Part shown: positions 21,621 through 60,929 of the stretch, piece by piece
How positions within the stretch are numbered: position 1 is the first letter of the stretch
Layout: every line of letters starts with the position of its first letter
NCBI GenBank assembly: GCA_013115145.1
Contig: JAAPAO010000025.1
Location: 61,687 to 125,686, forward strand
Direction of reading: 5' to 3'
DNA: 64,000 bases
From: Perkinsus chesapeaki
Lineage: Eukaryota; Perkinsozoa; Perkinsida; Perkinsidae
Notes under the pieces: generated by a model
Databases searched by the model: none
Told to the model about the DNA's origin: nothing
Seen by the model: the letters and a program-made list of their open reading frames with translations, nothing else
Program-made: the position numbers and the translations under genes

Positions 21621-24600
21621 ATGGCACTAGACGTTAATGAAGCATTGGAGTTGGGGGATTTGGGGAATATATCAATTGATATGGGAGCTGTTAAAAAGGT
21701 AATAGAAACTCAAAGGTTAGGGCGGTTGCCGAGGACTTGCCCTACGTAGGTTAATAATTATTAAATTGTAATATATCATTCATACACCGCAACACATTCA
21801 AGCAACTCGTGTTGTTTAATTACTACTCGTTATTTGCTAGGAGCTTGGCTCTTGGGAGTAGACTTGTTTTACATAGGGACACCTGAGGCACATCGTAGTT
21901 GTTGTCAAATCCTATCAATCGTTCTATACTTGTATAGTGTTAAATCCGCTCCTATAGTTGTTGTCCATCCTAAGGTTGCTAAAAACGTGTTTGACGGTGT
22001 ATGATAATCTGAACTGATATACTGTATAATATCATTGCTAAGCTTCGACCGATAGTAATGCTTGGTTTTACTAGCGCTGGTATCTGATCTGTATTGATAT
22101 TTTATTATGATCAGATATTACAGCAAATAGTTGACCGGCAGAATGCGACAGTCGAAGCTACTGCTGGCTTTGGAGATGATATTGGTAATAGTCCACGGGG
22201 AATAGTGGTCGAATTATTATACGTTGTATTATCGTGATGGCACTCCAAAGCATGCAGGCTTGCTGATCTGTCAATCAAGAACAAACCTTTTTATAGTGGA
22301 ATACTTCTAATGGAGTTAACTGTGCTGTAGTGGTAAAATTATACGATCGTTCACATTATAGTTGTTGTGGAGGACACTATGGTTTAGAAGGGGGTATGTC
22401 AATTGTCAAGTATCGAGTGCACTGGGCAGCACTCTCCAATACCCCGTCAACAGTTGGACTATCAGTAAACGACACATGGTGCGAATTCTGCCAAAACGAC
22501 TTGCAAAAAATCCATTACGATCTACTATGTATTAATGACTATGTACAGTGTTATGTGGCAAGTGACGGCTTAGATGGGCTCAAGGCTCATCTGGAACGGC
22601 GCGAGTCCAAAGGTATTATTCAGCGGCGCCGTACTGAATGCACTACAGTATTACGGTGCTTGCCACGAGTTGCTGGCTTTGGCAACAGCACTACAGGTTC
22701 GCGGCTTTGAGATATCGGTGGTACTATTGAGGGGTGCTGTACATATTGCTGTAAATGGATTGCTTGCTATTGGAGAGTAAAAATGATACCTTTCGTATAT
22801 AGGCGCTTTGGCGTTAGAACGTATCTTAGCTTTATGCGTGCACGTTGGTATCTTTAGTGAAGTTGAAGGCACAGTTCGAAGAGCGTGGTGAAGTATCGGA
22901 GAAGTTGAGCTCGCAGCTGACGGATGTTATGGAGAAGGTTGAATCTATGGGTAGAAATGGAGGATGGGGGAATTGAACCAAGGACCTTTTTCAAGAAAGA
23001 CACGGGCCATGTCTATTGGGCTATTATGGTGCTTTATTTTAGGGGAAAGGCTGCGTGAATTGGAGGGGAGGGACTTAGAGGGTCTCCGGGAAAAGATGGA
23101 AAGGTAGCTTTTTAATTCAGTGGCGAAATTTCGGGGAAAATTTCCAAAAATATATTTGCTCTATCTCATAGGTATTCTCGTTTGTTGCACACTTGAACGT
23201 TTTTCAAGCTTAATAATTTCCTCACGAAATTTGGTCGCTTTTCCGAGGAGGATCAAATTCGGGCAAGGCCACCGATGAGCGTCCACTTGTGTGCTCTTCG
23301 GTGTATCTGGTAATGTTTTGGTAGAACGAGGGCAACACTTTAAGTTGACGCAATATTACATTGGTGAAAGCAGATAGAGCTCCGAGATGAACGGAGATAC
23401 GGATGATTGGTTGATCGATTTGTTACGAAGTCTCGGTGTGAAACGGTTGATCGATTTAGTATGTTGATAAAATATAACACTTTTTAGTCACGAAGAGTCA
23501 ATAAGAGAGCTTCGAGAGAAGACGGCGGGAGTTGACCCCGCGATAGCTAAATTGGAATTGGAGCAATCTGAGCTTATGAGCAAGTTTACAGGATTGGAGA
23601 ATAAAGTCAGCGAAAATGGCGACACGGTTAGAGCGATGAAGGTAGAGCGGAAGGTTGCGGGTTCGAATCCCGGCGATGGGCAATTTTGTCGTCTTTTGAA
23701 ACCTTGAAGATAATATTATTGTGATTTAATTGCTATGTTCATTGATAAAAGGGGAAAATTTTATGCCGAAAATTTCCGAGAATTTTTCCCCTCGAACGCG
23801 TGTTTAGTCTAACACTACTGGGTTGCCGGCGTCTCCAGATGTATGTGAAGAATTGGGCGTTCAATTCAGGTCAGTTGGGAGAGTACAATCCAGCCGACAG
23901 TCGAGGAGCTCAGAGAGAAGGTTAAATTGTTAACCTCTCGAGTATCTTGCACGGAGGAAGATATCGAGCATCTTCGGAAAGATATCACGCAGAAGGTGAA
24001 GAGGTCGCGGGTTCGATTCCTGGTTAATCTGATAGTGAATTGAATTTGTTTTTTGAGAATTATGCAATCTCGCAGTAATTTTGAAATTGCCGTCGGTACC
24101 AATATATTTTCTTGGAAGTATCTTTCCCTCTTTAGTACGGCGACTCTCTGTGGGTGGAAATACGTAATGCGGTGGAGAGAGTAAGCAAAAAGGAGTTTAA
24201 AGAGGTGGAACAAAGAATTGAATTAAATAGCGCAAAATGGTGAGACCGGGGATCGAACCAGGGACCTTTCGATTGCTCACTGCAGGCACGAGCGATCGAA
24301 ACAACTGTTAACGTACACAAGAGATCACATTTTAACTGCTGGTAGGGGGAATCGAACCGGGGACCTTTCGGTTAGTAAATTCAATTTAGTGGCGTGCGAG
24401 TTCCATGAGCGAAGATTGCAGCATCACGTGTTTTCGTTGTGGTTTCAAAGTCAGTGGGAAGCGATGAAGAGACGGGCGGCTATACGAAGGCTGGGCTCGG
24501 TGAGCGTCACGCGCCACGAAATTCGGGAGGGTATTTTGCTGGTTAGATATTCCATAATCATCAGAGAGCGGCGTTGTGGGGATGGCGGCAAAAGGCGGAG

Positions 24601-27600
24601 TTTGAGGGGTTGAGGGAGGGGGTGGAGATTCAGGTGAGGAAAAGTGGCGTAGTGGTGGAGGGGGCGATTGATAATCGCTCCGCGCAGGTTCGATTCTCTG
24701 GAGGGACGTATTGCTTTGTGCGTCAGTGTGTGTGGAAATCTTGTCGCTCACTGCGGACTTGTTGAATTGGAAAGAATATAACGCATAGATGGACGGGAAA
24801 AATTGAGAGGGAAAATTTATTTTCGGTAATTTTGTGAAAGGATTTTCCCGGTCAGGAAAATTTTTGCGGGAAATTTTCAGTATTTTTCAGATTAAAGGAG
24901 TGAAGGAGGAGATTGAGCGATCTGTTGGTGATGATATAAATAAGGTAAAGGAAGTAACGGATGAATTAATGGAAAAGAAAATTGATGCGGTCGAGTTCGA
25001 GCGGCGGACGGGAGGTACTATGAGGGGCTTGAAGATACGTAGGAGATATCTCCTATTATCCTATGATTCCACAGATGCTACCCGTGAGATAGTTGGAATG
25101 AAAGCAGATCGGTACAAAGAAAGATATTTTTGGTGCCACGATTGTGAGCGACGGGTACTTCAAACTTGATTCAGCTTTGAGATTTCCGGGGGAAAATGAA
25201 TATATCGATCAGGTGATCGATTACATGATATCTTTTAGATTCTGTTCGACCTCTGGAAACTCGATTGAATGAAATTGAAGAGTTGGTTCGGAAACTTGAA
25301 TCGGTTGAGGATCAGCCACCGTCGATGAGTTCGGTGGGAGGAAGGGAATCTAATAGGAGTGTTAATAGCAGTCCAAGGGAGGGAAGGTTGATAGAGGTAA
25401 TGTGTTGAGGAATTGCAAGATTTATCAAGATTGCAAGAATTGCATCGCGCTGATTTGGCGATGGTTTATACTGCATTCGCCATTGGCTATATATTTTCAG
25501 TTCCGTGAGAGTCTGGAGGGGGTAATAGAATCAGTGAGGGTTATAAGAGATGAAGTATTACCGAGGGAATATGCAACCAAGGAGATGGCATTACAGTGTA
25601 CTAGAGGTAATAATAAAGGAGGGCATTATTTTACTTTTCAACTCTATCGTTTATTTTTTCTGTGAGGTGAAAGAGTTGGTCAAAAATTTTTGGGAAAAGT
25701 TGGAAAAATTATGGTTCAGAATATTCAGTGTTGCGGTGAGAAGTTGGCTGAAAAGCGGACAAGAGGATAAAAATTAGGAAGTGTAAAGTAATTTCGGAAT
25801 CCTCAAAATAATCCAATTCATTACCGACTAACTCGCCAGCTTCCTGTGATTCTTTTCTTCATTTTTCATCGTATTTTTTGCTGATCGTTCAGTTTCAGAT
25901 GCATTGGAGTTGCATAAATTATGTCAACGACTGGATTCTACGAAGGCTGATCGATCAGAGATGGACGCAGCAGTACTAGAGACGCGCAATAGCTCACAAC
26001 GATTGGGTGAGTTCGGTGGGGGGTTGGGAGCGAAATCTCCAAGATGGCATTTTACTGGTGGCCCAAGCCTTCTTGGTATTATTTCTTGGTGGTATCTAGT
26101 CACTATCTATTTTGGGCTTGTGATATGCCCGATGGCACAACGAGTATCTCCCGGTCATCTTTCCGACATGCGCACTGTTATTTCCGAGGGACCTCGATCA
26201 AATATCCGGCGCGTGGCAGTTATTTCCGCCCGGCACGCATTTATCCGATTCGTTCATGTGCAATATCCGACGAGTAAAGTCATTCTAATATCCGCCCAAT
26301 TCGTGGTGCACGAATGTAACAGTGCGCATGTCGGAAAGATGAGCGGGAAATGCTGTACTACCCACACACTGGTCCAAGCTGGATGATAAGGTCGGCATGT
26401 AGTGTATGGTGGTGAATTGTGAATAGTTGGTTTATTATTCACAGAGGTTTTTGTATCCTTGGAATGTTATTAGATGCTTCAATTGGTGGTAAAGTCGAGC
26501 TGTTGGCGGCGCAGTTGAGAGAGGCAGAAGAAAAGGGGAGAAAAATGGAGCAATGGTAGTGGGGCAGGTTTAACAGGGGGAGGGCGTGGGTTCGATTCCT
26601 ATCGGAGAGAAGTAAATTGTATTTTTTCTTCCGCGAAGTTGACGGGGTTTCCAGAGGGAATGTCACACCCTTTTCCCGTGTACTCTGGAACTCAATGAAT
26701 GAAGACAAATTTGAATTTCCGATGGATGACATTCACCCGATTCCTTCCTCCTGGGTGTCGATACCCGAAATGCGGAGAATAACTCACTAATTAGTAGTTC
26801 ATTCGGCTACGAATCATCGAACAACCATTCCAATCAACGTAGATGGGCGGCGGCAGTCCAGCTCGCCCGCCCGACCGCATTGCACTCTAAAGAATCTACG
26901 TCACAAAACCCGGTAGTCATCTCGACTTGGTCAACTACAGTAACCCTTATTATCATCCCGTTGAAGAACTTAACAATTAATATCATAATTATAACAACAT
27001 ATCGATAACTCCCTTGACAATATCCCATATCAGCAGTCATCACCGCTTTCTGAGTTATTCATTTTACGCGTCGTTTTTCAATATTTTCCTCTACCATATC
27101 TTCATTTTCGTCCGGTGTGAATGTTGTGGCTTTTCTGATGGAATGTTTTCCCTTGTTCAGTCTGTCTACAACCGAGTCGGCAGTGGCGGGCCAAAATAGC
27201 GCACTACAAAGAATGAAAGATACGCTTGTAAAGCTATCAGACTTCACTCAGGAACTCATCGATCGTTTTGTCAATCTTGGCAGTGAGGCAGGAGGTCGGA
27301 AGAATCTTTGTGTGAATGCGTGCAAATATTTTTTCAAGGTTCAACTCCGAGAAGTGGTGCTAATCTGACGTATATGGTGCGGACAGGCGGAGGGTATGAA
27401 CCGAAGGAATATACAACATTGAAGGTAATTGTAAATCGATTATCTGGGCGCGCGCTTTTTACAAGGCCGGTCAGGTTGGTGGTGAAGAAGGCGGGGTTGT
27501 GAGGATACCGGGGGTATTTGATGGTGGAGAGGAGAAGGACTCAGCGATTGATAGGTGAGATGGGTTGGTGGGGATGGAAGTGACGTTTGCCCAGTTGAAG

Positions 27601-28320
27601 TTGGTCGTTTGTCCAGAATCAGGGATTTGCTGGTGTTAAGCTATATATGTACATCAGGAATACACTAGATGGGAAGTTAGTCGCAGGCTCTCATTTGTGG
27701 TGAATTAGCTTTGCACGCTGACTCCCGGTTGGTAGTGGACGCATACTGTATGGAGTTTTACCGATTCCTGTGGTTGCTGGAGCTTCTCTTTTGTCAACCG
27801 TCAAACCTGTGGATCTCTCGGGACATTCTAGATACCTTGATCCAGACTTCTTCATAGTGCGACAGGTATCTTCAGCATGCCAGAAGTGTCATTGAGCGAG
27901 CAGCATCAGCATCAACTTCGAGGATGAGGAGCAGCAGCAGTGGTGGTAGGTTTCGGGTTCTTGGGTACGCTCCCGACCGCGCTTAATTGCCCATCCGAAA
28001 TAATCAAGTAGATTGAAGATCATCATCAGGTCGAGCACGGTCACGTTCTAGAGTGTATCGAACTCCACCGTCAAGGGAGCTTGTTCAGCCTAGAGGGGCA
28101 GCGGTGGGGACGCCAGTAGGGAAGGTCGTGGGTTCGATCCTCGGGAGTGTATTTTTAATTTAGGTTGGCGGACGGTATATTAGAGGAGTTGGCTTTGTAC
28201 ATACAAATTGACACATTTGACAAAGGTGTTCCTCATGCTATCAGCGACTGGCTTGAGTTTTGTGGCGCGCGGTCGGGGAGGTGGGGGGATTTGTATCTCT
28301 TTCAAAGGGACTCTTTGTAG
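21621..28320 (+). CDS. Long coiled-coil protein, at least 18 exons, probably cytoskeletal or flagellar
   Basis: It begins MALDVNEALELGDLGNIS and ends at the stop at 28318. Exons encode heptad-like charged helices such as SEKLSSQLTDVMEKVESM, IRELREKTAGVDPAIAKLEL, VSKKEFKEVEQRIELNSA and ERRLQHHVFSLWFQSQWEAM. Introns with frame and phase support are 22951-23042, 23642-23893, 23996-24135, 24240-24285, 24342-24389, 24500-24564, 24634-24890, 25015-25074, 25144-25238, 26556-27160, 27295-27386 and 28116-28163. Nine of these carry a tRNA-like B box. No family is recognised; the role is inferred only from coiled-coil content and the dynein neighbour. The joins around exons 2-4 and 25.4-26.5 kb are approximate. 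Confidence 0.7.
22958..23030 (-). other. tRNA-like relic in intron, antisense to host
   Basis: B box GGTTCAATTCC is at 22979-22969. A perfect A box, TAGCCCAATAG, is at 23023-23013, 44 nt upstream as in a tRNA. The A73 position is followed by TTTC. Arms are degenerate. It fills most of the 92-nt intron 22951-23042. Confidence 0.7.
23610..23682 (+). other. tRNA-like relic spanning exon end and intron start
   Basis: A-box-like TGGCGACACGG at 23617 (one mismatch to TRGYNNARNNG) lies in the exon coding NGDTVRAMK. B box GGTTCGAATCC is at 23660, 43 nt on, inside the intron that starts at 23642. The T stem pairs 4 of 5. ATTTT follows the tRNA 3' end. The acceptor stem no longer pairs. Confidence 0.65.
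24003..24030 (+). other. tRNA T-arm-like fragment at intron start
   Basis: B box GGTTCGATTCC is at 24010-24020, 14 nt into the intron starting at 23996. No good A box is seen upstream, so only the 3' part is recognisable. Confidence 0.5.
24238..24285 (-). other. 46-nt intron built on an antisense tRNA 3' half
   Basis: Intron 24240-24285 opens with GTGAGACC and carries antisense B box GGATCGAACC at 24250-24259, then AGGGACCTTTCG. The reverse complement reads as variable loop, T arm, acceptor strand and A followed by TTTT. Reading frames join cleanly across it (...LNSAKW/HERSKQ...). The intron 3' half and next exon form a hairpin, CGATTGCTC/GAGCGATCG. Confidence 0.7.
24340..24389 (-). other. 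48-nt intron built on an antisense tRNA 3' half
   Basis: Intron 24342-24389 opens GTAGGGGG. Antisense B box GGAATCGAACC is at 24348-24358, followed by GGGGACCTTTCGGTTAG. The reverse complement resembles the end of an anticodon arm plus T arm (TAACCGAAAGGTC). It lies only 56 nt downstream of the previous such intron. Confidence 0.7.
24638..24708 (+). other. tRNA-like relic at intron start (A box, anticodon arm, B box)
   Basis: Perfect A box TGGCGTAGTGG is at 24645 and B box GGTTCGATTCT at 24687, 42 nt apart. Between them GGCGA/TCGCT forms a five-pair stem with loop TTGATAA, which would be an Ile(GAU) anticodon arm. Acceptor and T stems are decayed. Host intron is 24634-24890. Confidence 0.7.
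25041..25054. repeat. 14-nt palindrome inside a 60-nt intron
   Basis: AGGAGATATCTCCT is central in intron 25015-25074 and would fold as a hairpin bringing the splice sites together. Confidence 0.6.
26539..26610 (+). other. tRNA-like relic spanning exon end and intron start
   Basis: A-box-like TGGAGCAATGG at 26546 (one mismatch) is exonic (codons for MEQW). B box GGTTCGATTCC is at 26589, 43 nt on. The T stem pairs 5 of 5, counting wobbles. A TTTTTT run follows some 20 nt downstream. Host intron 26556-27160 starts GTAGTG inside the would-be D loop. Confidence 0.65.
27328..27360 (+). other. tRNA B-box fragment in intron
   Basis: GGTTCAACTCC is at 27338-27348 in the 92-nt intron 27295-27386. 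No clear A box is seen. Confidence 0.45.
28079..28163 (+). other. tRNA-like relic filling a 48-nt intron
   Basis: B box GGTTCGATCC is at 28131. A-box-like CAGCCTAGAGG (one mismatch) is at 28086 in the upstream exon, 45 nt before it. A TTTTT run sits exactly after the tRNA 3' end and is followed by AATTTAG, the 3' splice site. Intron is 28116-28163. Confidence 0.65.
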
Positions 28321-28410
28321 TGAGGAATTTGGCTGTAAGATTTTTCGTATTTATCAATCTCGGTGGCGCTCAAGTTAACCTGGAAGATATCTTTTAAGTT
28401 TTCGCCTGTT

Positions 28411-31400
28411 ATGTCCTCATCGACGTGTGTCCAGGACGATGGTCCAGTGAGAGCAAATGGGATGAGGAACTATGTTGGAGAATCTGATGGAAAAAGTGAA
28501 AAAACGGGGAATGGCTTTTTAAGCGTGCAAATGCGCAATGGCTTTGTGTCGGTAAGACACCGGAAACCAAAATCAATGGTAGTGTGTTGTTATTACCAAA
28601 TCTACTCATTCATACTCTTTCTCCTTTCTACCGAACGGGTCAGGTTTTTTCCAGGATTGTTTGTTGGAAGCTGTTATTGGTCTGTAAGGGCTTGCCAAAT
28701 AAATACAAGATACTTCACTGACTTGATCTTTAATCTGATTTTTAAATGACCGCACGCCATGAAATATATTTAGAATTTACGGTGAAGATACCTCAGGAGA
28801 GCTCGAGCGAGGATATAGACCCGACCGGTAGGTGACGTGGAAAGGGGACAAATTGCACAAAACTTGACGGGCGTTTTCGAGTGTTAGTTGGCTTGTCCTA
28901 GAAGTTCTTCGCTGAGACACGGTAAAAAATGGACGAGGGGTTTTTCCGAGAGAAAGTGTAACACTAGTACAGGCTGCCAGGGGAGTGACGGGAGTGGCGG
29001 TGGAAGAGCGTGGCGAAACGCGCGTACTCTGGTTGGATTTCATCTTAGTGGAGCAACGGGATTGTGTCGTCGAGTTTTAGGAGGAGTTTTTAAGAGGTCC
29101 CTAATAGGCGCAACTCAACCGTGAGAGCAATGCTCCCAGAGAATCAACTCTTCGGCACGGTTATCACTGATAGCATGTCAGTCCGATAGATTCAGATATG
29201 TTATGGAGATTTAGGTTGATGATTTCAAAAGATCCAACTTGAATCTTTTAACTTGTTTATTTTTTAGGTTGGATGTTGTGGCCTGCTGCTCGGTGTTTTG
29301 CTGATTATTTGTCACTGCGCCCCGAAATTGTACGCGATAAGGATGTGCTTGAACTGGGCAGCGGTAAGTCAGTCAATTTAAACACTTTGAGTTGACCAGG
29401 AAACGGTATAGAGTCTAGTGCTGTGTAGTGAAAGTGAAGTATCCTTTCACTTCACGGCACCGGTGAAACTCCAGTGTATTCGGTGAACCATGATTCTACC
29501 ATCGATTGAGAAGTGGCGAATCCTGGCAGCAACAAGCGTCCCTACCTCAGTCGATTGTCCACCAGAGCCTGTCGGAGAACTCCTAGGGCTAGTCTAGCTA
29601 ACTCTAAGAGTTAGCCGATGTGTGTGAGATTCCCACTGAGAGTCGCACACAATATATGATGATTAGGCGTACATTTTCCTCTCATCTTCGAGTAATCAGC
29701 AACCGGCAGCGCAACAAGGCTATGGTGGAAGAGCTTTCTTATATCGATACTCAAGTCTGTTAGAAGAGAATTCGGATAGTTGGAATCTATAAGCGTTCAG
29801 TTTGTATTCAAGAACAGCGCTACTCCCTTCCTGCCGGATTCGGGTTTGACTGGTATGACTATCGTAATGCCTGTCGTATGTCGTAAGTCGTGTGACTATG
29901 GCTGTCGTAATAGTACAGTTGTCGCGTACAAGCGCGGTGCATCGTCGGGTAGTAATGGACACTGTCCAATGAAGAGCATGACTTCACATTCCATCGAGGA
30001 TGGCTTATCTGCGCGGTAACAGAAGCAAAGATGCAAAATATAGATGCCACCTACAAGCTTACTGTGAGAATCGTGACTTGTGATTCACAAGTAAGATTAG
30101 CAAGATCGCAAGAATCTCTTGTCTAACACAAGTATCTTAAAGCTACTGTAAGCTTAGTGCAACTACGATTGTCTAAAGTAAACTCATAAACTTTGCTGTA
30201 TATATTTTTATTCCACAAGTCCTAATGCTAATTCGTTATCAATTCGTTAACTATAAGTTCAACGAGAGCCAAGTACAGCAACACTTACCTTAAAAGGCTT
30301 CCCCGTTCTTATGCTAGCGGTCAGTGACAGCAGAAACCAACAACCTTTTCAGGTTGGTATCCGGGACATATTTGGTCTGATAGACCAATATGACTTGGGA
30401 GTTTTAGTCTGTTACTTCTGTAACTTGCAGAATTGTTCTGGAATCTAAGATGGTAAATGACGAGTCGTCATTTACCATCTTACCGTCATTGACGGCGATT
30501 CACTAGTGGTTCACTAGCCAGATGGTTCTTCCACTTGAGATGTGAGTACTGCCTGGAAAAGTTTTTCACACATCGACATACCTCTGCGCCTGCTTCAACG
30601 GAGAGACCATAGACCCAGCCGCGCTGTTACATATGGACTTGTTCACATCTACCAATCAAACTACGGTGCTACTCCATTCAACCCAACGAGCTTCTCTACT
30701 ATCACGGAACTGCAGATTATCTAACTCAAACAACGTCGCGTAACGATTGTCTGCGGGAGACTGACTCAACTGGGCTGCTAACGCCTGTTACAGTGCCATA
30801 TTGTCTAAAGATATCATATATGTGCACAAGTGTGAGTCTTTCTACGTGTCCCGGACATGGTGTCCCTCAGTGCGTTGTGTTACGACACCGTGTATTTATT
30901 TGTTTGAAATTAGCAGGGAATTTAAATCGATTACATAGACGCGCCTAGATATATCAGCAGGCACTGGATTTGGTGGGATTGTGAGCTACCTGCTGGGTGC
31001 GAAATCTGTGATATTAACAGATCTCCCGGAAGGACTTGATCGATTGGATGAGAGCTGCCGATGTAATGGTTTGCGTGAGGTTGAGGAAATACAAGTAAGT
31101 TCAAGATTGCAAGATAAGTGTCATAACTCTGTAAGGTACGATCGTGTCCGTGGGGTGACATGCAGGCGGTTGAGAAGTTACCAAGGCAAAGATTCGACGT
31201 GATTCTTTGCTGCGAGGTGAGATCCCGGGATATCTTTTCTTGCATGAAATGCACGCTCGACGTAAAGATAGCTGCGTCTCAGGTCCTCTATAAACAAGGT
31301 GAAGAAGTTTATGAGGATCTGATGAAGACTATAAAGGCAACAGCAAAGCCTGGTGGAATTGTATTGGTGGTAAGAAGCGAATTTAATGGTGCGCGGGAAA

Positions 31401-31637
31401 TGTATCTGCCTTTGCTAATGATTTTAATTGGATCGAGAACTTGTAAGAAACGCGAAAAACGTTCCTGAGCTCTGATGTCGGTGTCTGGCAAGAAGTCCTG
31501 GCTAGGTTTACGAGTACCGTGGATCGATGCTGGAAGATCAGTACATGTTTGATCTTCTATTTGATGAGTATCCCGATGGTAGAATGGAAGTGTTGGAAGA
31601 AGGTGAAGATGACGACTGTGAAAGAAGATTATTGTGA
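28411..31637 (+). CDS. METTL21/FAM86-like protein methyltransferase
   Basis: SAM-dependent class I methyltransferase. Recognisable exons are 28411-28551 (MSSSTCVQDDG...), about 28757-28827 (YLEFTVKIP), and 29268-29363 (MLWPAARCFADYLSLRPE then VLELGSG). 30961-31094 continues TGFGGIVSYLLGAKSVILTD, 31166-31216 has RFDVILCCE, and an exon from 31283 reads VLYKQGEEVYEDLM then KPGGIVLV. A last exon ends at 31637 (CERRLL). The LWPAA, LELGSGTG, V.LTD and FDVI..C/DVLY motifs match lysine and elongation-factor methyltransferases. The SAM motif is split by a 1,597-nt intron (29364-30960) full of palindromes. The target is unknown. Confidence 0.75.
29597..29615. repeat. 9-nt-arm palindrome, one-base centre
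   Basis: GCTAACTCT-A-AGAGTTAGC is perfect and lies in the large methyltransferase intron. Confidence 0.8.
30446..30495. repeat. 18-nt-arm perfect palindrome abutting a second palindrome
   Basis: The arm TAAGATGGTAAATGACGA and its exact reverse complement flank the G at 30464. The next base (30483) begins CCGTCA-T-TGACGG. ACTTGTGA-T-TCACAAGT (30076-30092) and TTGGTCT-gat-AGACCAA lie in the same intron. Confidence 0.9.
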
Positions 31638-32142
31638 GGATGGGGCGCGCGAGAATTGTTGGTGCCTAAATTGGATCATAATTTTATTAGCTTGCCCAAA
31701 ATGTCTTCGGGAAAAAAGATTTGGACTCAACATGTAAAGATTTCAGGGTTGACTCTGAGTTTCGGGTCCTGGAGAATCCTCGTCGATAATTTTTATAACT
31801 TTTCCGAAAATTTTATCTTTTTTTGTCAGATACGTTTTTCCTGTTCCTCTCGACAGCTCAGCAGCAGCAACAACCACCAATTCGTAATGTGTTCAATTTA
31901 CCACATCATTGTGATGAATTCCTACGTCATCAAGGTTCTACTACGTTTCTCCTTCAGGGAAGATGAAAGTTTAGTTGGATCTTGCGATCTTGCTTCATCT
32001 CGCATTTCCTCAAATCATTGCTGACGAGAATATTGCTTGAACTTGTCCCAAGTCCGATTGACCTTCATAAGTGGATCTTGCAATCTTGCTCCATCTTGCA
32101 TTTACTTAACGCCGTTCAGTTCCTGTTGTTTTCTCCTAGTAT
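31638..32142. other. Intergenic spacer with a duplicated TCTTGC-rich unit
   Basis: Two similar stretches, about 31975-32015 and 32073-32105, share GGATCTTGC-ATCTTGCT-CATCT-GCATTT. A related TTGCAAGA motif occurs in introns near 25425 and 31104. No gene is seen. Confidence 0.45.
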
Positions 32143-34774
32143 ATGTCAGTAGCAGCATCCGTAGCTAGTAAGAGCTTGCCTATTGAGAGTGCTGCAAGGT
32201 TGAGTGTGCTGCAGTCAAGGATTAGAGGGATGATGTTGGGTGGAATCATTGGGGACTGTTTTGGGACAAGGTGACCTATTTTGTATCTTAGCTTCGATAG
32301 ATCCCCGGAAATTTTTTTTCACGGTTGGAATATCTTCCGGCTTCCCTGAGTTGAATTCTGTGATTTCCTTGTCGGATTGTCGTGGAATAGAAATTTTTCT
32401 GGCGATGCAGAAATCGCCGAAATTTTTTTCAATTTTTTTCCTCGGGGAAAAGTAAGACATGCCGCGCACGTGTATTCGAGCAGCGTGGTTCAAAGGAAAA
32501 TTTTACGACATTTTTCGGGAAGAGTGGTATGATTTCAACGTGGATTTTCGGGAAAAAACTTCTCTTCTTTTGGAGTCCTGTATTTTGAATCAGGTTCAAC
32601 GATGTTGGCGTTGGAGCGCTACCGATGATGGATGTTGCAGAATCTATGTCGTATCGTACTTTAGCGCCTGCCCTATCCAAGCTTTCGAATGGGAAATGGC
32701 TGTTCAGACTATCGTCCGATGGGTATATGGTAGGGATATCGACCCCTTGGGTATCTTGCACACTTCAAGCTTAGATGCTGGAAGCGACGAAGAATGTTCT
32801 TGATGGTGGTGACAGTAACAGTTTGAGGGAGAAGCTGGTTGGTTTGATGACCGACCCGAGCATGAACCATCTCAAATGGGGGTCTGGCATCACTTCAGTG
32901 AGCAATATCATAATCGATCAGATGATCGATTTGTGTCTCAGGTGCTCTCCGGCAATGCTCCCAAAGCCAGCGAGCTCCGCGGGAATACCGTGATGGTCAG
33001 AAGTCTGCCGGCTGCACTTTTCCCCGATGAGGAGTATGAAAATATTTTCTATCAGGTGAGAAAATTTTTTCCCTTGGAAAAATTTCCCACAAAAATTTCG
33101 CTTTTGATTACCTGCTTACCCTCCGAAATGGTCAGGGATTATGACTCGCGAAATAAGTCTAGCTTACCAGAAGTGAAATGGAAACTGATATGCACGATGA
33201 TGGTTTTCTGATGCCGAAAAGATAACGCATTTCCCGCTTAGTTGGCGGATGCTGTTCCTACTCATGAAGTGGCGAGAAAGAAGGCTAAGAGCTTGGCAGA
33301 TGCTTGCAAGGCTGCACTTAAGAGTGGAATATTCGATCCTACTATGATTAAGGATAAAGCGTAGGTGTTATGAATCTGACCTATTCGGTATCCTCCATGT
33401 TGTAACCAATCTCGCATCTTTCCATTCTAACCTATCTCGCATCTTTCCATTCTAACCTATCTCGCATCTTCCCATTCTAACCTATTTTGTACCTTCCCAT
33501 TCTAACCTATCTTCTATCTTCCCATTCTAACCTATTTTGTATCTTTTAGTACCGTCTCCGCCCTTCAACTTGCCACTCCAGCAAACTACGATGAAATTTC
33601 TATGAATCTTCAAAAGAGGCTGGCTGCTCGAGTAGGCATATTTCGTGGCGCGTGAGAAACGTATTACAATATCTTAGGTTGGTCAAAATGCCATGGCTAG
33701 CACTACTCTTCCTGTTGTCGCTTTTGCGATGAAGCAAGGTGAAGTCGGCGAGGAAGTTCACGGGAAAGACGAGTGAGTTTTTGTACATTGGAAAAGTATC
33801 GATGAGGACATTTCTGGAATTTGGACCTAGGTGTGAAAAATTTAGAAAAAACAACTTCGTCTGATCAACTGGGAGAAATCTGATGAATGTTAATTTCTGA
33901 TGTGGAGAAGCTTTATGAGGTCTCATATAACTTCTCGTACAAAGGCACAGTAGTTGACAAATAATTAATAATTTCTATGGCCCAATCCCGTTGTAGTTGA
34001 GAGAAACAATATTGAAGTTGCTTTGTTCCATCAATTGTACCTTTCTAACTTTTATGGTATTCCTTTTGTGATAGCTTGCCCTTATAGGGCTTATGCTGCT
34101 TTATTATTTCAATAATAGTTTCACGGACTTCTGCCGAGGATGGCTTGATGAGATTTACTGATTAGGACAACCGAGATGGGTGGCATATCTTTGGACCCTT
34201 CCATGTTCTCACCGAACATTCTCAACAGAAGTAACAGACTCGATCTTGCACAGGAGTTTTACGAAGAGACAGCAAATGCCAGCCCTACGTTTGGTCAAAA
34301 CGGTAAGCTGTTCGGCTTTCATTCTAAAAGTCGTTGGTTCGATCCCTGCATCGCTTATTTTTAGAAATGCATTTGATACTGAGTTGGGCTATCAGTTGTG
34401 GTGGCGACACTCGTACAAGTGGCTGCCTCGCTGGTGCCTTGGCCGGAGCGACGTAAGTTGGGAGAACTGAAATCGAGGTTCCTGGTTGTGGATCCGACTT
34501 TCCCGTCAACTTTCGCGGGAGGCCATTCAGCATAGGCTTAGTCTTCCGAACTTAATTCAATGGGTCCACTTCTACTATGCTTGCAAGGTACGGTGTGGAA
34601 CAGATTCCCAACGAGTGGATAGCGACTTGTGAGGGTTCCAAAGAAGCCATCGCAGTTGCCGACAGAGTCTTCGATGAGATATATCTAAATAATCCAATTT
34701 TGCTCGAATCGATCGTGCAATCGATTTCCGTGCCAGTTCGAGAGGTTCATGTTCCCGCGGATGGAACAGCATAA
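32143..34774 (+). CDS. ADP-ribosylglycohydrolase, ARH3-like
   Basis: It removes ADP-ribose from proteins or poly-ADP-ribose (family knowledge). Exon 1 reads SRIRGMMLGGIIGDCFGT, the ARH N-terminal motif. Later blocks are WGSGITS/VLSGNAPKASEL and RGNTVMVRSLPAALF (compare GN..MR), ADAVPTHEVARKKAKSLADA, and QNAMASTTLPVVAFAMKQ. SWAISCGGDTRTSGCLAGA and then TYGVEQIPNEWIATCEG follow, ending at 34774. Supported introns include 32898-32941, 34303-34364 and 34453-34587. The usual GGDTDT metal-binding motif reads GGDTRT, so one Asp ligand is lost. The TDD motif region (about 32615) is visible but its frame is unclear. It may be inactive or a diverged paralogue. Confidence 0.75.
32898..32941 (+). other. 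44-nt hairpin intron
   Basis: It joins GITS to VLSGN in frame. It contains AATCGATC-agat-GATCGATT and ends TGTCTCAG. It is nearly the same design as the intron at 36781-36827. Confidence 0.75.
33391..33548. repeat. Minisatellite, about 26-28-bp units, in ARH3-like gene intron
   Basis: About six units of the form TTCTAACCTATCTCGCATCTTYCCA vary mainly in TCTCGCATC versus TTTTGTATC. Single related units (GACCTATTTTGTATCTT) occur at about 32272 in the first intron of the same gene and at about 34967 upstream of the dynein gene. Confidence 0.75.
34285..34364 (+). other. tRNA-like relic: A box in exon, B box and T-run in 62-nt intron
   Basis: Perfect A box TGGTCAAAACG at 34292 encodes part of FGQN in the exon. 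B box GGTTCGATCC is at 34336, 44 nt later. The A73 position (34357) is followed directly by TTTTT and then AG, the 3' splice site at 34364. The intron's GTAAG lies in the would-be D loop (GGTAAGC). Acceptor stem does not pair. Confidence 0.7.
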
Positions 34775-35088
34775 AAAATGCAGTTTTTCCCGTCATTCGC
34801 CAGCGATTCTTTCGCTCAGCGCGCCGCGTAACCGGCGGCATGTTGAAAATCTTCACAGTGCGGCGCAAAGATACGGTATCTTAGATACCCTTCTCTACCA
34901 CCACTCACTTGTGTATAATGAGCATCATAGTCGCATTGTTCCTCTATTCCGTATGAATTCGGTCCGACCTATTTTGTATCTTATAATTTCGTGGCGCAGC
35001 GGTTTCTGCAGTTTGTGTGTTACTGTCACAAAAACAAGGTATATTTTCTACAGAATGATTCGTGTTGCGTTTGTCAATTCACAAAAAA

Positions 35089-35195
35089 GGCGGAGCGAAG
35101 TTTTCTTGACATTTTCGGATAATCGAAAATGAACGAGTATGAATACATCTACACGAAGCTCAGGAAGGAATTCGGAAAGTGGGCGGAGCGAAGCG
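35089..35195 (+). repeat. GGCGGAGCGAAGC motif, two copies around the dynein start
   Basis: Copies are at 35089-35100 (5' of the start codon) and 35182-35195 (first intron). Others are at 38496-38510 and 38758-38770 (introns of the same gene) and 58949-58962. Confidence 0.6.
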
Positions 35196-38100
35196 CTTCA
35201 TGTTTTACAGTTTTCGCAATGCTTTATCAGGTATTGCGCTTTTAGCGACACAGATCCAAAGATGCTGGCGTCAGTTGAGGGGAACCCGGATGCCATGAGC
35301 CAATATAGGTGAGAGTCTTGCCGTCTTACCGTGACTTGTAATTCCTCAACGGTATCCTAAGGTTGAGCATGCAGGATATATGGGTCGGATTGTTGCAGAT
35401 ACAAAAATCCATGCACATTAACATTCGACAACATTCCAGTTATGTCGGAGCATTCTGTTAATACTGACACAGTGAAGACAGGGAATAAAGGGCAGGTGAG
35501 CAGCGGGGAAGCCGACGAAAATTCCGGGAAAAATCTCCTCATCGTACAGGTTTTACGGTACAGTATGCGACAGCTGAAAACTCGGTGTGTGGACGGGCAA
35601 AAATTCCGACGAAAAAGGAGTTATAAAAAGCTGGATTTAGGGGCAGAGAAATATGAGTAATTCAATGGATAAGGAATTGGCTCGAAACCCTCCATGCTTA
35701 TCGAGATTTTTGCCAATCCACCCCGCGTTCGTAGATGTCGCGTACTGCGCCTCCTCCAGGGTAATCGAACAGTCGCCGGTTCGATTCCCAGAAGCGGTAT
35801 GTTGTGATGTTTAGTATCATTATTATTTAGGTTCACATTGAAGGAGGTTGGCCAAAAGAAGTGGACTATAGCGAAGCGCAGGACACTGCAAAGTGAGGAG
35901 GGTGTCTTCATTGGCTTTTCGAGCTTCCTGAAATGTGTTGATTATTATGGCATTCGATGAGGCCAGTTCGGACCTCACTTGGGTAAAGCTGATGGTATAT
36001 TGTCAGTCTTGGCTCGGTGAGCTATAGAAGGACAAAAAGTATTGTTAAACCCCAAGAAATGATTTTATTCTTTTTCTTCTCTTCAGAAGAACCTACGTCG
36101 AAATTTCTCCGCGCGCATACGTACTGTATTGCCTGACTGGTGAACAGCGATGTTACCCCAGTTGTGAGCAAATCAAGCCGGAAAGGCCGGCGCGCCTTGC
36201 TCTGGAATGGCATCGAATCCTCTCGAATGGAGGTTCACATTTTCCGCAAGTTCGTATCCTCGCTGCGTCAGTAATTCACCAAAAGTGAGATCTTGGAAAA
36301 TTGTGACCAACAGACGGCACGACCGAATGGTTAATTCCGTATGCGCAATAGAAGGATTTCCCAATCAAGGATTTTCCGGCCCGTTTGAAATTTCCGAATC
36401 TTTTCTAATTGATATATTCTTTTTCAGATGGAGAAAGCGTCTCGATAAAGATCCTCAGTTTGGCGCGGCGATGAAGTCTCTGTGTGGAGAGGTCGAGCAC
36501 TTCATCGCTCAGAACAGTAAGATCTCATTTCCGGAATCTTCACCAAAAATGGGTGCGCGTGCGAGTTGCACGTCCATCGTGGCGAACGAGATCTGGAAAT
36601 CGGCGTTGCTGTTCATTTTGGGGTTTTCTTCGAAGAAAAGAGAAGATTTTTGGAAAAAGAAAATTTAGGAAAAATTTTCAGGCACAATCGACATGTTCGA
36701 GGATTACTTCTCGGGCGAAGAAGTTCAACACCAAATGCAAACAATGTCGACCAGTACAGTTGCAGTGTTCCGCGATCAAAGTAACAAGAATAATATCAAA
36801 TCGATCACCTGATCGATTATGTCTCAGACGAAGAAGGCTATGGCAGAACTGTGTCGAGGATATCTTGGCATCCTGAGGGGGGCCATAAATTCATTGCCAG
36901 TTACTCGGTATTAACACGTTGTTTTAGATAGTTACGGATAGGTGGAGTTGTCAGGTTATGCAGTTCCAAAGGTTGGATGATCCTATTGGGCAATCAAGCT
37001 TCATTTGGGACGTAAGTTGGTCCAATTCAACCTCAAAAATATCTTCTTATTTTTCAAGGTTGAGAATCCTAACGTTCCTGTGGGAGAGCTCCTCCCTCCT
37101 TCCCCACTGATATGTACGCAAGTAAGTTCATTTCGAGGCGCGTGACGAATTGGCTAGCATTTCCGAATTGGAAGACCTCCACGGCTTTGAGACGTGAATT
37201 CTAAATGCATTTTGTTTACAAAAAACGGAGAAAAGATTCTCTGAAATTTTCCGGAAAATTTCAGTTTTTTTTTCAGTACCAAACAAGGAACCCCGATACC
37301 CTAGCTGGCGGGGCATATAACGGATTAGTCTTCTTCTTCGACGTTCGACAAGTAAGAGGGAATTCCAGGAAAAATGATAGAGAGATTTTTGAGCAAAAGA
37401 ATGGCCGACATCTTCATGCAGACATGGTTATCCTTCAGAGAGGTATTTTCTCTTTGACTGCTTGAGTGTGACAGATGAGAGTGAATCCGAAATCGTGGCA
37501 GAAATTTGCACCCCGATTCTTCCGAGAAAATTCATTCGTTAGCTACTTCTGTGACAACCAGAGATGAGAAGCTTGGTGGAGTGCTAGAAACGGTTTCGAT
37601 CATTCGCACTTGGGCGGGATATTTCACGACGAGCAAGATCGTCGTGTTCAGGCGACGAAGCCGGTGGGGAAATCTTCATTTGAGCATTCCCATCATGACC
37701 CGGTCTACGACTTCGTTTGGCTGCAGTCCAAGACTCACAGTAAGAATAGCGTAGTGGTTAGAGACTCGAGCTCCCTTGGAGAAGGTATCGAGTTCGATCC
37801 CTCCGTTTTGTACAGGTGAATGCGCGACAACTTCAACTGATGGAAGAGTGCTCTGGTGGGATGTTCGTAATTTGTCCGAGCCAACTGATGAAGTTATTCT
37901 TACGGACGGCAATCGAGAAAATCCAAAGCAGCTTGGTGAGCCGGGACGAACATGTTAGGGGGAAAATTAAAGTGAAGAAAATGAACTTGGAACTGATTTG
38001 CGCTTGGATCTTATCCGATTGAGGCAGTTGGTCAGTCCAGTTTTTTTGGCGGGGGTCTCTTCTCATGAGGAGGATAAAATAAATTTCTGAGGAAATTTTG

Positions 38101-39342
38101 GCTCGTCTTCCGGGATCGAGGAGAGTATTTATTGTAACCGTTCGATAAGGGAGCAGTCTAGGTTAGTCTGACATCATCGATTATTATTATTCTCAGGCGG
38201 CTGTTGCTTGGAATGGCAGCAGGAGGCGGGCCCGACTAAGTATCTTGTGGGGACAGAGCAAGGCGCATGCATGGCGCTTAATAAGAAGCCGAAGAAGCCA
38301 GTGGAAATCGGTGAGGAAATCTTGAAATTCGTTTAGATGACGCTTTAATGCTCAGGGACTTGGTTTGGGATCGAGGATAAGGGCGGACACTCGAAGCACG
38401 CCGGCCCAGTTTATGCACTCCATCGAAATCCTCAACATGTCAAATATTTCATGACAGTCGGCGATTGGAGTGTTAAAATTTGGCTCGAAGTATGACGGCG
38501 GAGCGAAGCGTTTTTTTGTTTACCTTTTTGGCAGGAGCTGAAGGCGCCTTTGATGCAGACTAAACCTTCGCCGGCTTTCCTCACCACAGGCGGATGGAGT
38601 CCTACGCGAGCCGGCCTTTTTATGGCTGGTCGTTATGATGGGTATGATTATACGAGGGAGCGGTATGAAATGGACTTGCTCAGATATGTTGATTTCTGGG
38701 ACTACTTCTATAGAATGAATGAAGTATGTTATTCACACAGAGTAAAAAATTACAATTCCGACGGAGCGAAATTGTTGTTCAATTTTTTAGGTTAGCAAGG
38801 TGCCGATTTCAGCGACGTCCTTCCAATCGCAAGGACGCCTGTTGGCGGTCGGCGATGCCGAAGGGACAGTCTCGTTGTTGCAGCTCTGCGATGAGCTCGT
38901 CAATCCTGGGCCGAACGAGAAAAATGTAGCGTGGATCTTAAAGATACGAAATAGGTCAAGTTTAGGCCATTGGAATGATATTTGAGCGCGAGATGAGAAG
39001 AGAAAAAAATCTCGAAGCGATCAAGAAAGCTCAAGCTGGAAAAGGTAAGCAAATCGCGCAGCAGCCATTCATAGTATCGTTCCGAATTTCAGCTCAAAAA
39101 GGTGATGGTGATTCTGGTGAAGGAAAAGGTAAGGCGATTGATGGCATTGATTGTGATATGTTTTATAGGGAATGACGATGGCGCTCCACAGAGTATTGAA
39201 CATGAAGCGTGAGCCTTTCTAATGGTGTTGTTTGGTCTTTACAGTTGCCAGGTATCTTGAAAGGGAAAAGGCATGGCTTGAAGAAGTTGGAATTCCAGCT
39301 GATGAGAATGGCTTGACTATCAAGCCGAACAGTGAAGAGTGA
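35129..39342 (+). CDS. DNAI2: Axonemal dynein intermediate chain, DNAI2/IC2-like WD-repeat protein
   Basis: Component of the outer dynein arm of flagella. Exon 1 reads [16 protein letters not shown], as in DNAI2. Then come [51 protein letters not shown] and [58 protein letters not shown] and [17 protein letters not shown] follow. [34 protein letters not shown] and [18 protein letters not shown] complete it, with a stop at 39340. WD repeats lie in the middle as expected. Many introns are 44-150 nt; the first is 35179-35245. Junctions between 35.49 and 35.70 kb are uncertain. Two introns carry tRNA-like sequence. The family match is strong. Confidence 0.9.
35731..35830 (+). other. tRNA-like intron in dynein gene
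   Basis: The probable intron opens GTAGATG at 35731. A degenerate A-box position (TCGCGTACTGC) is at 35738 and B box GGTTCGATTCC at 35778. It ends TTATTTAG before VHIEGGWPK. The first intron base would be tRNA nucleotide 1. The A box has three mismatches. Confidence 0.5.
36781..36827 (+). other. 47-nt hairpin intron in dynein gene
   Basis: It contains AATATCAAATCGATC-acct-GATCGATT and ends TGTCTCAG. The same architecture is seen in the ARH3-like gene (32898-32941). A related hairpin, ATCGATCAGGTGATCGAT, is in intron 25144-25238. Confidence 0.7.
37740..37815 (+). other. 76-nt intron that is tRNA-sized and tRNA-organised
   Basis: The intron joins [15 protein letters not shown] in frame. Perfect A box TAGCGTAGTGG is at 37747, which makes the intron's first base tRNA nucleotide 1. 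B-box-like AGTTCGATCC is at 37791, 44 nt on. The 5' splice site GTAAGAA can pair 6 of 7 (three wobbles) with GTTTTGT as an acceptor-like stem. ACAG, the 3' splice site, then stands where ACCA would be. D and T stems are poor. Confidence 0.65.
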
Positions 39343-39777
39343 TCCATGATGAAAATTGAAAGTGTTAATAAAGATGTGTTTAGTTTAAGTACAAGTTGAT
39401 GTTATCTGATCGAAAGGATTGCGGAACTGTCGTCCTAGTTTTTCGGCTAGTAAAGTCCGAGTCGAACTGTCCGACGGAGATACCGAACTCTATAGAAGTC
39501 TGACGTGCACCTTGGTAACCCCGACGGCACTTGAGACTTAAAAGTTGCTTATTTAACCTACTAACAGCCTTTCTGTTTCTTTTCATTATTATACATACCG
39601 AACAGCCCCTTTAAGGAAGTGTAAACATATACGTACATTAAAGGTGTATATGATGGTGCATTCACTCAACGAAACGCAACAAGTATTACATTACTAGCTA
39701 AACGGTAGAAGCAAATCATGCTACATTACAGTTTACTAATAAAAATACATTTGCAACGGTACTCAATTATAATGCTT
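39343..39777. other. Convergent intergenic spacer
   Basis: AT-rich 3' flank between the dynein gene (+) and the cupin-like gene (-). No gene or RNA is seen. Confidence 0.5.
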
Positions 39778-42230
39778 TTAGCGCCTGATACGACGAGCAC
39801 GTTTAGGAGGAGGTGAGGATTCCTCAGGAGGAGCAACGGTCCCCTTGGCCTCCTTTGGTGTCAGTAGTGTACATTCATCTGAAGGGATTGGTAACAATAA
39901 TGATCAAAAGCAGACTTACTCGATGGGCGACCTTCTAAGATATCGGAGAACTGAACCATGAATAAATGGTTATCTCTGTCATGGAAATGGGATATTCCTC
40001 GATCCCAAACGTCAACCATAGCAACCGAAAACTCATCATTAACGATCTGAGAAAACCCCTACATAAAAACCAGATGTTAGGACAGAACTCACTTGGTGCC
40101 AGTAACCGGGCGGTATAATGACCATCTGAGAAGAGGCTGCTGAATAGTGAAAAATTAGAGCAAGCTACATCGCCTGGATGAAGTGTCATGAGCTTGAAGG
40201 TTGCCGGCAATCCTTTCATCGTTTTCCAATTAGTAAAGTATCTATCACGAATGGAGTGATGGAATGCGAGAGTTGGTAGATGTGGCCCTACGTGGTGTCA
40301 AGCACCATGTCCTGGCCATTAGTGAGGGGTATACCCCGCCTGGAAGAGCCAGTTTGTGCCTTATCTGATAAAACAAGAGAATTATCACCGACCAAGTCAA
40401 ATATGAAATCAAGTCTTATATCGGCTGTGTGGTCTAGTGGTATGATTCGCGCTTCGGGTGCGCGAGGTCCCGGGTTCGATTCTCGGCTCAGCCCATTTTC
40501 TCCAGAAAATACCGTCTTACTGATAAATGTTTCCATCTTCGAACGCTCATCATTACTGAACGTTATCACCGTTTTCTTCCCCTCAATGCAGTACCTAACG
40601 ACGTCCTCCAGCTCAGAAATCCATCCACACTACTACAGTGTCGCAAACCCGTTGTCTTCCCTATCAATGTGAATTACTGAGTAACTTCCGGCCTCTCCGA
40701 CCAAAAGACTCGGGCCTTGCCCTGACTCATGTAACGGGCATATTTCAAATGGGTAAATATTTGCTACTGTTTCAACCTAAACGTTCCCGTCCATCCAGAC
40801 CTCGGCAACCCAATATTACAGTATCGCGCTCATACGCGCACTGGCCATATACGACAGTTTTCTTATGTGATGGAGCGGCGCCCAAAACCTGTTGCGCGAT
40901 TCCCTGAACGCCGCTTGTATCCTATTACATCCTTTATAGGGCCTTGGGCTACCCTCTTTCCACCACCTCCGCCCAGCTCAACGTAACTGACCGAGATCAC
41001 TTCGACGAAGACCGACGCTTCGACTGCCTACCCCGGCATCTCTCGCTCTTGTACCTCATCAAGTGTGAGGATCTGAGCCATATCACATCTTCCGTCATTG
41101 TGTGGCGTGTTCCTACCACCGAACCCAGCGGTCCGCCGCCAACGCCCTTGCTCGTCACAGTCGACAACGATGCCGATGAACCAGATTCTAATCGTGCCCT
41201 CAAAGTATCTGTGTGCAGCTCGAGTATGTGAGGGAAATGAGAAGTGAAGTGATCGAAATGACATAACCAATTAGGCCTAAAGTTTGCACTCCTACTGGCA
41301 CCCCTTGGTACAGCGGGAATTTCAAAATTCCATCGATCTGAGAATAGTTTATTACCAATCCTTCGATAATTTTCGAGTGCTGCTAAGCTCCCTTTACCCG
41401 GTTTACCTATAGGGACAAGCTTCGAATATCTCAATGTTAGATGGTCCAATACGGCCCTGTTGTATTCTTTAGGCACCGGTCGATGCATTATAACCAATTC
41501 GTGTAACTGATAAGGCACCCATATGGCTTGATGAGATGGAATAGACTCACATCTGGAATGCATCGAAATAAGCAACAATTTTCATACATCGTACGTTTGC
41601 CTTTCCCTCGAGGAACCAGCAAGTCCTAAACTCGCCAAAGCGTCCATAAAAAGCCTACCGGTCCTACCTCACCTCGACAGTGACCACCGGAAGCAGCCGA
41701 CACTTCTCGGAGAATTCTTTCTCAGATAATGTCTCACGAGGATCTTCGTCGTCCCATCTAACCTAGGCAGGTTCGATCCCTGCCCCCTCCATATTTAATC
41801 GTTACTCTATAAGTTTTGGTCTTGGGTCGCCAAGAGCATACCGTCCCAGTATAATATCTACATGCTCGCCTATTAAACGAGCCCTTATTCCCCAACCTAC
41901 TGGTTCCCGGCGTCCTCGAACATCATCTCAAAGCGCTTACCGATCGCTTCCTCATGAAAGATGCCAGCTGGGCGGGCTTTAATGAAAGGCTGCAGAGCTG
42001 GTTGATCCAATGCAGGGGTATACATCCAAGAGTAAACTTAAAGGCAACAGGTTGGAAAATATTAGATCTAGTACATGTCGAGGAGAAACGAATAGATGGG
42101 GTCTAATTAGGGTCAACCAGGAGTTGCCGATTTCATCGGATGTGTGTGCATGCCGATATGTACTGTATGCTACATCTTCTATCCAATAAACAACAACTTT
42201 CACTTTAATACATTCCCGAATCGGGGAGCT
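39778..42230 (-). CDS. Nuclear protein with cupin/JmjC-like C-terminal region
   Basis: Minus-strand exons, from upstream, are PFIKARPAGIFHEEAIGKRF..., then KEFSEKCRLLPVVTVE (5' site GTGAGG) and DLLVPRGKGKRTMYENCC... (5' site GTGAGT). A probable exon near 41.0 kb reads LTLDEVQEREMP, and ELEDVVRYCIEGKKTVITF follows. Near the end come IRDRYFTNWKTMKGLPATF, LMTLHPGD/MVIIPPGYWHQ/GFSQIVND and FSVAMVDVWDRGISHF. The last exon ends PPPKRARRIRR with a stop at 39778. GD...IPPGYWHQ is the strand-turn signature of cupin/JmjC folds, and the tail is a classic nuclear signal. Upstream start and several joins are uncertain. Plus-strand frames here appear to be shadows. Confidence 0.5.
40423..40494 (+). tRNA. 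tRNA-Pro (CGG), intact, antisense in an intron
   Basis: 72 nt. The acceptor pairs 6 of 7. The anticodon stem CGCGC/GCGCG closes loop TTCGGGT. B box is GGTTCGATTCT, and ATTTT follows the 3' end. A and B boxes are 43 nt apart. It lies between exons of the minus-strand cupin-like gene (...METFISK and GPHLPT...), so it is nested antisense in an intron. Confidence 0.92.
41730..41799 (+). other. tRNA-like 3' half, antisense in intron of the cupin-like gene
   Basis: The T arm pairs perfectly (GCAGG/CCTGC) around TTCGATC. B box is at 41770-41779, and CCCCTCC-A-TATTT follows. The 5' part is not recognisable beyond a weak A-box position at 41730. The host runs on the minus strand. Confidence 0.55.
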
Positions 42231-60892: not shown

Positions 60893-60929
60893 AGTGATGA
60901 AGAGTTTCACTCTGCATACTGAACAAAGC

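Follow-up and report, generated by a model that had tools for sequence, protein, structure and literature searches.

A possible introner-like set of introns in Perkinsus chesapeaki

Introners, described from Micromonas, Aureococcus and Amoebophrya, are mostly transposon-like families. Their hallmarks are that many introns of one genome share sequence and that the element accounts for much of each intron. Both are found in a set of predicted introns of Perkinsus chesapeaki that we describe here from a 64,000-nucleotide stretch (the window; positions 61,687 to 125,686 of contig JAAPAO010000025.1, assembly GCA_013115145.1) and from further parts of the same genome. The shared element consists of the B box of an RNA polymerase III (Pol III) promoter and a Pol III terminator, arranged as in a transfer RNA (tRNA) gene. 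This intron-associated family is real and unusual, and introner-like in its behaviour; with a probability just short of one half (about 0.48), we read it as a genome-wide introner-like set of introns born from a Pol III-promoter-like element. Unlike in known introners, similarity between copies is largely limited to a 34-bp motif and falls short of near-identity, the splice junctions show no duplication, the motif combines a Pol III B box with a terminator, and the introns carry it in both orientations. One account of Amoebophrya reports introners with inverted repeats (PMC7789003). The introns of Amoebophrya are non-canonical, whereas those here are GT-AG by the gene model.

Three other systems invite comparison. 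tRNA-derived short interspersed elements (SINEs) have in common with these elements a B box, a terminator, tRNA spacing and degenerate stems, but no conserved body or tail is seen here, the A box is mostly missing, the elements are concentrated in introns, and the two used as search queries have no close full-length copy. The extra-TFIIIC (ETC/COC) sites of yeasts and mammals consist of an extended B box without tRNA structure, many of them without an A box, as here. Such sites need no terminator, whereas the P. chesapeaki elements, to which TFIIIC binding is putative, keep a discriminator A and a T-run at tRNA spacing, and half of those in the 264 kb analysed are intronic. Intron-nested tRNA genes also occur in this genome, but their T stems pair perfectly and their introns span 136–202 nt, while the T stems of the elements are unpaired and most element introns are shorter. 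A limited search of titles and abstract beginnings found no account of introns of this kind. The origin of new introns is a long-standing question, and introns marked by a Pol III promoter and terminator of the tRNA type that work in either orientation would, if the reading is true, tie intron gain to tRNA genes. As the motif is easy to find and the introns are short, the idea is directly testable across Perkinsus species.

The motif and its abundance

The original prediction, made on the window from its letters alone, was that introns here repeatedly contain tRNA-like sequence, with B boxes in excess of chance. That excess is confirmed. The strict B box, GGTTCRANNCC, matches 15 times in the window, against a mean of 0.88 and a largest value of 5 in shuffles. 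Across the 35.4-Mb, 884-contig assembly, where the window forms part of contig C168, it matches 2,432 times (1,209 + 1,223), intact tRNA genes included, while the reversed pattern gives 566 matches (299 + 267). B boxes are about 3.4 times as dense in the window as in the genome on average. Protein homology identifies the genome as P. chesapeaki: the named best hits are proteins of this species, among them FOL47_004382, and of P. olseni. Three of the 15 window matches (60086, 60824 and 60825) lie within intact tRNA-Arg and tRNA-Leu genes, the last two being a single palindromic site read on both strands. The sites at 55396 and 27338 fall below the element model, and both look like chance.

The motif extends past the B box (AAGGTCGCRGGTTCGATCCCYGGNNRNGGYATTTTT), with the terminator following at tRNA spacing, so that the T-runs reported at the would-be tRNA 3′ end are borne out: GGTTCRANNCC-N10-ATTTT occurs 428 times genome-wide (210 + 218) and its reversed control 0 + 0 times. 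The consensus of 60 non-tRNA strict sites begins near tRNA position 42, continues as far as the T-run and places a discriminator A at the exact tRNA distance. Its core of about 34 bp corresponds to tRNA positions 44–77 and comprises a variable-loop GGTC, the B box, the discriminator A and the Pol III terminator TTTT. The consensus of 59 terminator-pattern sites reads A44 G45 G46 T47 C48 G49 C50 R51, B box, Y63 G64 G65 N N R N G70 G71 Y72 A73 TTTT, with positions 66, 67 and 69 nearly random. These sites derive from 60 that were fetched in contig order from 100 listed places (part of the 428), places already sampled being skipped and one (L063) removed as an intact tRNA-Arg.

A position model applied to 264 kb, made up of the window and stretches L031–L050, finds 42 non-tRNA sites at scores of at least 17, against 0.3 per shuffle and 1 in reversed sequence. 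Several of these stretches were placed at contigs or places with known B boxes and the window was chosen for its finding, so no density per Mb can be scaled up from this sample; contrasts between introns and the remaining sequence of the 264 kb suffer less from the choice. Elements were defined by a score of at least 15 together with TTC in the B box, leaving out ARAGORN tRNAs, L063 and duplicates, which gives 43 elements in the 264 kb and 116 in all. The sites at 37791 (score 9.6) and L047 6622–6720 (17.6, no TTC) consequently stand outside both sets. When sites were selected on their flanks alone, with the B box masked and a score of at least 15, the B box was whole or almost whole in 15 of 16, matching at 11, 10, 9 and 8 of 11 positions (2 of them free) in 7, 4, 3 and 1 cases; the remaining site, with 3, is probably chance. 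The same selection returned 0 sites in shuffled and 3 in reversed sequence, but the flank model was trained on overlapping sites and carries supportive weight only. The words GGTTCGAT and ATCGAACC rank among the most over-represented in predicted introns.

Element introns and their splice junctions

Our own simple hidden Markov gene finder, trained on the 264 kb, predicts 531 introns with GTAAG donors, T-rich YAG acceptors and a commonest length of 41–48 nt. These predictions fit an account of P. marinus genes, whose introns are canonical (GT/AG), 39 to 1622 bp long and in the majority below 100 bp (PMC3101222). The motif is carried by 22 of the 531 (about 1 in 25), besides four introns with intact tRNAs. 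The 43 elements are distributed over introns (22, in 15.1% of the bases), predicted exons (8, in 39.7%), the neighbourhood of genes (4) and deep non-genic DNA (9), and their density reaches 5.5 per 10 kb within predicted introns but 1.2 within deep non-genic DNA, a 4.5-fold difference (p = 7.6e-5). Thirteen of the intronic elements are sense and nine antisense, in agreement with the two orientations noted earlier. Element introns have a median length of 58.5 nt, compared with 48.0 nt for the others (Mann-Whitney p 0.027). Since 17 of the 22 are shorter than 81 nt, the motif makes up about half or more of each of these, unlike the result of inserting at least 36 nt into an ordinary 45-nt intron. 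With one motif, both orientations, occupancy of half or more of most introns and the raised density, the suggestion of an introner-like family is supported.

Scores across 530 introns are bimodal: 26 reach at least 15 (15 sense, 11 antisense; four hold intact tRNAs), one lies between 3 and 15 (37740, at 9.6) and the rest fall below 3. In the shuffled-intron control proposed with the original prediction, run here with three shuffles per intron, none reaches 15. Ten of the 14 window sites that had been assigned to introns do lie in predicted introns (22969, 23660, 24250, 24348, 24687, 28131, 34336, 37791, 41770 and 59518), but 24010 and 35778 are labelled exon, and 26589 and 27338 are outside predicted genes. 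The placement at intron 5′ ends likewise holds for most, but in introns of 45–60 nt the motif takes up most of the length, and at 41770 it is near the 3′ end.

Splice sites occur at variable distances from the element core. In sense elements the T-run leads into YAG and supplies the polypyrimidine tract of the 3′ splice site; in antisense elements the complementary A-run is often part of the 5′ splice site (GTAAAAAT; donor often GTAAAAT), and CCTTT precedes the 3′ site. Splice-site pairs scoring at least 8 around the 116 elements number 44 in sense against 8.7 expected from random windows, an excess that is not independent because the motif's own T-run raises the acceptor score, and 14 in antisense against 7.7, a modest excess.

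Four element-intron junctions fit conserved proteins without a gap: one in the dynein chain, two in a potassium (K+) channel and one in a KH protein. The protein spliced across 37740–37815 aligns gap-free over the junction with 7k58_E (E 3.4e-72), an intermediate protein of the flagellar outer dynein arm. The gene in L035 for a voltage-gated K+ channel that also has EF hands contains two antisense element introns, one of 46 nt and one of 71 nt, and both junctions are gap-free against 7ukf_A, potassium channel subfamily D member 2 (E 6.4e-20). A KH domain in L047 is interrupted by a 55-nt sense intron, and P. olseni FOZ63_022121 (88% identity) reads through at this place, as judged by eye.

The 71-nt channel intron sits after query residue 151. 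A genome search gave seven non-self matches that span this residue without stops. Four are significant (E ≤ 8.5e-4): two on C187 (61% and 57% identity), one on C446, which continues only 4 residues past, and one on C828. Three are weak (C319, C362 and C390; E 0.06 to 0.28). A further match on C1 (E 4.6e-4) stops at residue 150, one short, and is uninformative on this intron. The read-through in paralogs favours intron gain at this one K+ channel site. The predicted protein of the channel gene (L035 5000–7700, minus strand) is a single chain in which calmodulin-like EF hands come after the voltage-gated channel.

tRNA structure, the A box and intact tRNA genes

The earlier observation that most stems no longer pair can be sharpened. 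The T-stem pairs 49–65, 50–64 and 51–63 form in 100% of cases in the 16 tRNA entries that ARAGORN gives for this genome, which represent 14 distinct genes, one of them seen in three overlapping loci. In 56 elements the pairing is 51.8%, compared with 49.2% for shuffled partners (242 of 1000 shuffles reach the observed value); in 59 further elements it is 48.6% against 55.2% (1992 of 2000 shuffles equal or exceed it); and over all 116 it is 51.1% against 52.9%, with no T-stem covariation detected among them. Nor does the acceptor strand find a better upstream partner than in shuffles, in the 56 elements. With T-stem and acceptor pairing at the level of shuffled partners, a decayed tRNA structure was rejected. 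The covariance-model check put forward with the original prediction gives only intact genes: at the gathering score, the Rfam tRNA model matches the four intact tRNA genes of the window and none of the elements, and at E up to 10 in six stretches (60 kb, 23 elements) only three intact tRNAs match as tRNA. A single element region gave a negligible tmRNA score of 10 bits.

The claim of A boxes upstream is weakly upheld. While the B box is present in every element by selection, a clear A box is missing from most copies. Of the 116 elements, 16 reach an A-box score of at least 7 of a possible 8 between −50 and −36, against about 4.5 expected. The excess is confined to the 264 kb (12 of 43, against a background of 3.9%), where the window contributes 4 of its 12 elements (22969, 24687, 28131 and 34336); elsewhere the figure is 4 of 73, near background. 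At 34336 and 28131 the A-box-like word starts upstream of the predicted donor and is therefore not, or not wholly, inside that intron.

ARAGORN and Rfam identify the same four tRNA genes in the window. Intact tRNA genes in predicted introns bear out the proposal of intron-borne Pol III units, but the introns that hold them are longer than most element introns. Separately, on contigs C440, C328 and C358 there are several tRNA matches of equal or near-equal score within a few kb (63 of 3,361 first-look candidates were scored).

Relationships among copies

Nearest neighbours among the 116 elements agree at 11 to 20 of the 24 positions outside the B box and T-run, with a mode of 15. Within a set of 56 sites, all matches are short ones around the core, with the exception of two overlapping windows. 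Whole-genome searches with two elements, in which very common words were skipped, returned only the queries themselves and one 30-nt identical core elsewhere, the 59501 element having no second copy. A single SINE family is not supported, as close copies were not found and matches are confined to the short core. One pair of paralogs (L069 and L092) has the element in both members, with too few differing sites to gauge constraint.

Origin of the element introns

If these introns were born from a Pol III-promoter-like element, copies would insert into genes and survive because they are spliced out, an exonic insertion thus becoming a new intron. The ultimate source would be a tRNA gene or a tRNA-derived Pol III element, a Pol III transcript may be involved in the copying, and the letters of promoter and terminator would be retained while tRNA structure was lost. 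That the copies share mainly these letters implies either many old copying lineages of low rate or selection in place. A more far-reaching version, which we consider unlikely, is that these are long-lived introners with a Pol III B box and terminator that form introns in either orientation, the terminator supplying the polypyrimidine tract in sense and an A-rich donor in antisense, and that tRNA genes were the original, and possibly a continuing, source of perkinsid spliceosomal introns.

Several observations weigh against birth from such an element. The whole-genome DNA search with two elements, in which very common words were skipped, found no close full-length copy. At the splice junctions of 69 of the 116 elements (splice score at least 7) target-site duplication shows no excess, at 2.38 against 2.38 in shuffles; the five bases after the T-run recur upstream in 29 of 88 elements, where 13.4 would be expected, but the distances are scattered and this excess is not relied on. 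Of the 43 elements, 21 are outside predicted introns, and 4 of the 9 intact tRNA genes of the 264 kb are in predicted introns, in both orientations, so that tRNA genes do enter or inhabit introns. A genome-wide comparison of GTAA donors with TGAA is weak (sense 238 against 179, 1.33-fold; antisense 265 against 223, 1.19-fold), TGAA being an imperfect control because the motif itself contains A-runs. The absence of the 71-nt intron from the K+ channel paralogs could also reflect loss.

Rather doubtful, in our judgement, is the alternative that tRNA genes or tRNA-derived sequences entered existing introns and were then trimmed to about 45 nt, leaving the 3′ end. It draws on the four intact tRNA genes in introns of 136, 137, 144 and 202 nt, on the A-box excess in the 264 kb and on the few intron elements of tRNA length (37740, 59501 and L047 7209). 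Under this history, however, the T-stem pairs should persist like the B box, and their pairing is at shuffle level. Bimodal scores with a single intron at intermediate values, the 4.5-fold higher density in introns than in deep non-genic DNA, and the lack of the 71-nt intron in four significant paralogous matches all argue against it as well. With T-stem partners that are random, a B box kept in 15 of 16 flank-found sites and this bimodality, tRNA relics are not supported as a general explanation, and neither is a conventional tRNA-derived SINE, given the two elements without a close full-length copy (common words skipped) and the lack of a clear A box in most copies.

Selection in place would leave the same letters if the motif were a TFIIIC-binding site of the extra-TFIIIC kind, or a Pol III unit acting on chromatin or transcription, the other positions having diverged. 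The B box shows only about 0.9 mismatches per copy in the 15 flank-found elements, whereas positions 66, 67 and 69 vary almost at random; RNA covariation is absent, as expected of a DNA-binding site, and both orientations occur. A motif this informative would nevertheless hardly arise well over 1,000 times without copying, so that a spreading process is still needed, and the terminator stands at exact spacing although extra-TFIIIC sites need none; moreover, the position bias is partly built in by the B-box search. We regard this explanation as quite unlikely. Chance B boxes combined with a biased reading of introns would suit the sites at 27338 and 55396, but with shuffles, reversed patterns and shuffled introns all far lower, chance is refuted for the set as a whole and is most improbable.

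Coordinates and neighbouring features

The element introns, remaining B boxes and intact tRNA genes are listed in Table 1. The interval 22001–26000 has a strong skew of G over C (0.24 and 0.33) over a coiled-coil-like gene, which holds six of the window elements, one of them labelled exon.

Table 1. Positions of elements, their predicted introns and intact tRNA genes (window coordinates unless a stretch is named)
Feature	Position	Strand	Remarks
Predicted intron, 92 nt	22951–23042	+	Antisense element; B box 22969–22979 on minus strand
Predicted intron, 166 nt	23642–23807	+	Sense element near 5′ end; B box 23660–23670
B box of element	24010–24020	+	Labelled exon by gene finder; GT 14 nt upstream
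Predicted intron, 46 nt	24240–24285	+	Antisense element; B box 24249–24259 on minus strand; 30-nt identical core on C96
Predicted intron, 48 nt	24342–24389	+	Antisense element; B box 24348–24358 on minus strand
Predicted intron, 257 nt	24634–24890	+	tRNA-length sense element at 5′ end; B-box-like GGTTCGATTCT at 24687–24697; A-box score 7/8
B box of element	26589–26599	+	Outside predicted genes
Predicted intron, 60 nt	28104–28163	+	Sense element; B-box-like GGTTCGATCCT at 28131–28141; ATTTTTAATTTAG end
Predicted intron, 62 nt	34303–34364	+	Sense element; B box 34336–34346; ATTTTTAG at 3′ end
B box of element	35778–35788	+	Labelled exon by gene finder; 54-nt GT..AG intron possible
Predicted intron, 76 nt	37740–37815	+	Axonemal dynein intermediate-chain-like gene; nearly whole intron reads as tRNA-length element; B-box-like AGTTCGATCCC at 37791–37801; TTTT before 3′ splice site; score 9.6, below threshold
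Predicted intron, 143 nt	41758–41900	−	Antisense element near 3′ end; B box 41770–41780 on plus strand
Likely intron, 78 nt	59501–59578	−	One tRNA-length sense element; B box 59518–59528; ends CGGTTTTACAG; splice sites read by eye (gene finder: 59515–59562, 48 nt, the length used in counts)
Intact tRNA-Arg(tcg)	60034–60108	+	In predicted intron 60011–60146 of minus-strand gene (antisense)
Intact tRNA-Leu(aag)	60812–60892	−	In predicted intron 60774–60910 (sense)
Intact intron-nested tRNA gene	L036 2940–3011
Intact intron-nested tRNA gene	L050 6890–6964

Another intronic motif, GCGGAGCGAAGCG, is likewise dispersed, with 205 + 205 occurrences genome-wide against 0 + 0 for its reversed form. It is found in the window at 38490–38534 and 35179–35245, in L036 at 5407–5451 and in L035 at 6582–6693 and 7258–7325; 11-base pieces of it mark 10 places in the 264 kb, 5 of them in predicted introns, these five all sense. 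Three open reading frames of the window look alike by eye (1801–3363, 45795–47279 and 49385–50002), and the one at 45795–47279 has many Perkinsus homologs and matches the TIR domain weakly, at the Pfam cut-off.

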